DNA of 32,163 nucleotides. It comes from Nitrospirales bacterium (GTDB taxonomy: Bacteria; Nitrospirota; Nitrospiria; Nitrospirales; UBA8639). The stretch lies in the NCBI GenBank assembly GCA_021604005.1, contig BQIV01000047.1:1-32163 (forward strand), read 5' to 3'. Shown piece after piece: positions 23,645 through 24,026 of the stretch (positions are counted from its first letter, which is position 1; each line of letters opens with the position of its first letter). The notes below the pieces were generated by a model that searched no databases, was not told the DNA's origin, and saw only the letters and a list, made by a program, of their open reading frames with translations. A program made the translations under genes and the position numbers.

Positions 23645-23980
23645 CTTATGGGCACCTCTACAAACCGTCCCTTTCCGCGGTGGCGGCGTCAGCTGCGTGC
23701 TCACATCCTCATGTCTTGGCTCCCTACGATCACAATAGCAAGCGCTCGCTCCCCTCACACAATGGAGGGTTCATCCGTGTTGTAAGGGGCATCCCACTAT
23801 CGAAGCCAAGACTCAGGGCAGTGGCCTTGGGCACGGTGGGCCAGAGGGCAGACGGTACAGCCATCTTTCCGTTGTTGGGATGGATTCTCCTTTCCGCGAG
23901 AACGATCACAGGTGCCCAAGTTGCGTGCGCGGCTTCCTTGCACTCACGAAAAAATCCTGGTTTTTAGAGGTATCCTTATG
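23645..23980. mobile_element. MITE-like element: TIRs, CTTATG direct repeats, nested palindromes
   Basis: The left end GGCACCTCTACAAACC (23651-23666) is an inverted copy of the right end GGTTTTTAGAGGTATC (23959-23974), 13 of 16 matching. Both are flanked by the direct repeat CTTATG (23645-23650 and 23975-23980), as expected of a target-site duplication. The 308-bp interior encodes no transposase. It has a 9-bp inverted repeat (GTCTTGGCT 23713-23721, AGCCAAGAC 23804-23812) enclosing a weaker CCCCTCACA/TGTAAGGGG stem. The GGGCACCTCTA-type end recalls IS5-like insertion sequences, from memory. It is either non-autonomous or a deletion derivative. Confidence 0.7.
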
Positions 23981-24026
23981 CCACTTCCCGTCAATGTTTT
24001 GCTACAATAACCGGAGTGGCATTTTT
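23978..24026 (+). terminator. Terminator-like hairpin just upstream of aminopeptidase P
   Basis: ATGCCACT (23978-23985) and AGTGGCAT (24015-24022) form an 8-bp perfect stem, extendable inward by CCG/CGG, followed by a run of five T. The loop is long (29 nt). It begins inside the right direct repeat of the MITE-like element. Before that insertion it would have stood about 120 bp after the STAS stop, so it was probably that gene's terminator. Confidence 0.55.

Follow-up and report, generated by a model that had tools for sequence, protein, structure and literature searches.

A gene-less IS5-linked MITE family in Nitrospirota and its likely transposase partners

In the window (the whole 32,163-nt stretch of Nitrospirales DNA analysed here), a gene for a STAS-domain protein and a gene for an M24 aminopeptidase are separated by a gene-less stretch, which raises the question of whether it is a mobile element, an RNA gene or a decayed remnant and, if mobile, what moves it. 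A preliminary description had proposed a MITE of about 330 bp, and length, ends, target duplication, further copies and empty sites all agree with this proposal: positions 23650–23975 are a MITE of 326 bp, which can be assigned with high confidence to the non-autonomous IS5-group miniature transposons. This is jumping DNA of a real but ordinary kind. What it adds is an IS5-linked MITE family in Nitrospirota, none being found there in the open papers searched, together with a tie to its likely transposase.

Limits, target duplication and empty sites

The limits of this long-form MITE (23650..23975, plus strand) are given by full-length copies elsewhere in the genome and by an alignment of nine copies. 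It begins with a 17-bp terminal inverted repeat, GGGCACCTCTACAAACC (23650..23666, plus strand; family consensus GGGCACCTCTAAAAACC), and ends with its counterpart at 23959..23975, which reads GGATACCTCTAAAAACC on the minus strand. The two repeats of the window copy agree at 14 of 17 positions, and in other copies the agreement rises to perfect; the imperfect repeats described earlier are therefore present, that description having merely begun at the second base, so that the element it saw is real but its exact ends were wrong by a base or two. Inside the repeats, and all on the plus strand, lie a left arm (23667..23712) common to a short form of about 141 bp, a central segment (23713..23905, limits approximate) that is found only in the long form and sits in the loop of the fold-back, and a right arm (23906..23958) that is mostly present in the short form too, the shared part starting near 23921. 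The central segment contains an internal stem formed by GTCTTGGCT (23713–23721) and AGCCAAGAC (23804–23812). No reading frame is conserved among the nine long copies, in keeping with the lack of coding capacity noted at the outset, and a coding role was dropped on this ground.

The element is flanked by two copies of TTAT, at 23646..23649 and 23976..23979, to which no strand is assigned and whose 4-bp length follows from a tally over the family and from the single-copy site in relatives. Among 117 distinct elements gathered from loci (107 MITEs and 10 IS-length elements), exactly four matching flank bases were found in 74 and five or more in none, the mean for a 4-bp match in shuffled flanks being 5.3 and the maximum 12 in 500 shuffles. 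The exact 4-bp duplication is seen in both classes, with 67/107 for the MITEs (shuffled mean 5.2) and 7/10 for the IS-length elements (shuffled mean 1.0). The CTTATG letters reported as direct repeats do flank the element, but the duplication is 4 bp (TTAT) and not 6: both junctions read C TTAT G, the outermost G (left) and C (right) are part of the element, and the target's outer C and G are the same letters as the final and initial bases of the element itself, so that the repeat seems to be 6 bp long. A 6-bp duplication is ruled out, since with the end bases counted as part of the element, matches of 5 or 6 bp are seen in no case. The favoured target is C-TTAA-G; among the duplications TTAA is common, and ATAA, TCAA and TAAA are about equally frequent. 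A YTAR-type 4-bp target duplication is typical of the IS5 subgroup of the IS5 family.

Empty sites in relatives, which the preliminary description had suggested looking for, were found. The element is absent between the STAS and aminopeptidase genes in four genomes of the same genus (G001, G002, G003 and G004), two of which, G003 and G004, can be aligned through the site without a break to the window minus the element and one duplication (window, TATTCTTATGCCAC; both relatives, AATTCCTGTGCCCA). For a second copy (L005), matches in G003 and G004 likewise skip the element, judging by the extent of the matches. About 25 bp downstream of the insertion is TGTTTTGCTACAAT, a run of 14 bases (window 23995–24008) that the window shares unchanged with G002, G003 and G004 and that looks like a putative extended -10 promoter element of the aminopeptidase gene.

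Copies, distribution and folding

Further copies with the same ends are numerous. Eight full-length long copies and two partial copies are present in the assembly to which the window belongs (G000, 4.7 Mb in 92 contigs), together with about 25 short relatives (~141 bp) whose match to the long form is limited to its two outer arms. The seven other full-length copies are 87–91% identical to the window query; long copies differ from their consensus by 4.6–8.0%, the window copy being the most diverged. Within the genus, G003 carries a long copy with TTAA duplications and both G004 and G002 give partial long-form matches, while the short form extends to two further genera of the same family. A scan for GGGCACCTCTANAAACCGTC with one genome per species returned 90 stretches; among the 80 matches listed, nearly all lie in MAGs labelled Nitrospirae/Nitrospirales or Ca. 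Troglogloeales (an order of Nitrospirota) and in one labelled Nitrospinota, with single stretches labelled Halothiobacillus, Rugamonas and Akkermansiaceae. Two Nitrospirota orders (Nitrospirales and Ca. Troglogloeales) contain short relatives in the form of ~141–144-bp fold-backs. The Halothiobacillus MAG (L196) has a 143-bp copy very similar to the Troglogloeales form, which would reflect either horizontal transfer or mis-binning.

The marked folding potential of the element bears on a different explanation, namely that it is a gene for a structured RNA, or an element acting as a regulatory RNA, which is repeated by chance and whose spread is secondary to its function. None of 100 shuffles folds as well as the minus strand of the window copy (z -3.25). 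The short form, a single long and imperfect palindrome, folds along its whole length (-67 and -78 kcal/mol for the consensus), and the long form consists of the same arms with about 185 bp more in the loop. Among 32 short copies, 10 fold-back pairs are changed on both sides against 4.4 in shuffles. When the two orders are aligned with each other, covariation is seen at 12 of 32 consensus pairs, and stretches of the core are common to both. These paired changes are a hint of maintenance and not a proof of it, because the shuffles ignore relatedness; moreover, transposon hairpins evened out by copying between arms can give rise to paired changes as well. However, any fold-back transposon folds end to end, the copies stand at different places with target duplications, and the element is missing at the same locus in four relatives, so that an RNA gene conserved in place, named beforehand as an outcome that would contradict a MITE, is excluded at the window locus. 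Rfam gave no match at gathering or relaxed thresholds, and a simple scan of the window element and its immediate surroundings revealed nothing resembling a promoter or terminator. An RNA gene is thus very unlikely. The internal stem, for which an RNA fold had been suggested, is there in the sequence but is not strictly kept across the nine copies, as its 5' arm varies in two of them; the 3' arm is AGCCAAGGC in most.

Partner IS5-family elements and proposed mobilisation

The preliminary description had also held that such an element implies a related transposase elsewhere in the genome, and had proposed a search for an IS with matching terminal repeats. Genomes of the same genus and the same family indeed contain IS5-family elements of about 1255 bp that encode a transposase of 337–367 aa and share the 17-bp ends and the 4-bp duplications, but the own assembly has yielded only a decayed fragment. 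In relatives, PF01609 matches and end matches coincide at one locus (G010:C105), and at another (G041:C212) two ends lie 1253 bp apart. Both loci hold complete elements, L111 (949–2204, 1256 bp, duplication TACA) and L112 (523–1775, 1253 bp, duplication ATTA), and a protein search led to further ones, including one in the window's genus (G003:C106). Intact 4-bp duplications and ends with at most three mismatches from the MITE consensus are found in L111, L112, L255–L258 and L260. The partner proteins are IS5-family DDE transposases: they match NF033581 with 256 and 286 bits (cut-off 140; 3e-76 and 3.6e-85), as well as the Pfam families DDE_Tnp_1 and DUF772.

The sequence common to MITE and IS is confined to the terminal 16–18 bp (about 25 bp at most, with gaps) and includes no sub-terminal sequence; the likeness being terminal only, the MITE is no simple internal deletion of any IS seen. 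An apparent deletion derivative of 758 bp, from an IS5-like element that bears these terminal repeats, does occur in an Akkermansiaceae MAG (L228), which suggests either that this end type reaches beyond Nitrospirota or that the contig is mis-binned. Its existence, the match of its left end to the MITE slightly past the terminal repeat and the IS-like ends in general would suit the idea that the window element is what degeneration and internal deletion have left of one IS5 element, and not part of a self-standing MITE family. Against this idea, the nine long copies are nearly constant in length (323–326 bp), dozens of short copies measure 139–146 bp, and the MITE interior is dissimilar to every IS recovered. 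Near-constant length and copy number together indicate that the element spread in its present form; a single-IS remnant is largely refuted by copy number and is very improbable.

For the self-standing MITE family, the likely mover is the transposase of the IS group with the same 17-bp ends, a reading based on the identity of the ends and the like duplication length. The DDE transposase of the ~1255-bp elements would recognise the matching MITE ends in trans, cut the element out or copy it, and join it to a C-TTAN-G-like site opened by a staggered cut, from which the 4-bp duplication would result. In the own genome, the only IS trace is a decayed 3' part of an IS5-family element (C24, about 62028–62465; L069, about 729–1165), which is 71% identical over 342 bp to the end of L259 and has one degenerate end of the same type beside it. 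Apart from this fragment, unpaired ends revealed no autonomous copy, and the 92 contigs yielded no complete IS bearing such ends, although one could lie in an assembly gap; other own-genome PF01609 proteins (C65, C40 and C32) have no such ends nearby. Because the decayed fragment is the only trace, the family looks orphaned in its own genome, within the limits of a draft assembly. As the most diverged of the long copies, in a genome with only a decayed IS fragment, the window copy is probably immobile now. With the partner IS lost and dozens of MITE copies remaining, this genome would offer a clean case of passengers outliving their drivers.

No description of this MITE family, and no occurrence of its end sequence, was found in the open papers searched, which likewise contained nothing relevant on MITEs in Nitrospira or Nitrospirota. 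The closest published analogue is MITEPsy1 of Pseudomonas. In Pseudomonas syringae, this gene-less element of 100 nt, described with ISPsy2 of the IS5 family, has 18-bp imperfect terminal repeats and a 4-bp duplication at CTAG or YTAA; its copies are well conserved and confined to one species complex, its transposition was shown in vivo, and its likely mover is an IS5-family transposase with nearly identical ends, the IS5 assignment carrying a question mark (PMC3189936). The two families share the lack of genes, the 4-bp duplication and a likely IS5-type mover, and the MITEPsy1 ends also hold a CTCTnAAAAA-like motif. In contrast to MITEPsy1, the Nitrospirota family comes in two sizes (326 and ~141 bp), spans two orders, uses a looser target and is known from sequence alone. 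Also close are the IS5-family elements with GGGCACCTCTAAAAAC ends from this genus and related ones (L111, L112 and L254–L261), which have the same 17-bp ends and 4-bp duplication as the MITE but differ in being about 1255 bp long, transposase-coding and unlike it in the interior. Another example of a short gene-less element whose terminal repeats are common to a co-resident IS is MITEAba12, found with ISAba12 in Acinetobacter, which has 113 bp and 9-bp duplications (PMC6382973).

Insertions at stop codons

Sixty-three MITEs have an intact duplication and sufficient flanking sequence; in 15 of them the duplication coincides with the stop codon of an ORF of 100 codons or more, for instance at L014 2101, L025 1507, L032 1499 and L211 7401; the window copy does not belong to them. 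At other places in these loci, the 4-mers in question lie on such a stop codon in 24 of 2024 cases (9 of 501 for non-coding ones), a share of 1–2%. The p-values for this excess are too optimistic, because the ORFs are uncurated and the copies related. An insertion of this kind should do no harm, since the stop is restored by the duplication; these counts do not tell target preference from selection as the source of the excess. If the excess holds, the rebuilding of a stop by a duplicated TTAA-like site would be a simple form of damage avoidance by a mobile element.

The ~141-bp fold-back may in addition be kept as a structure, and perhaps adopted as a 3'-end or RNA-level regulatory part, given the core sequence shared by homologous copies in two orders, their compensatory arm changes and the location of about a quarter of the insertions exactly in stop codons; this is an unlikely reading. 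Finally, the short form also exists in variants of about 180 bp (L119 1848–2029, L120 1745–1925 and L162), in which one arm contains an additional hairpin (GCCTTCGGCGCGCAC...GTGCG), inserted at an identical position in each.
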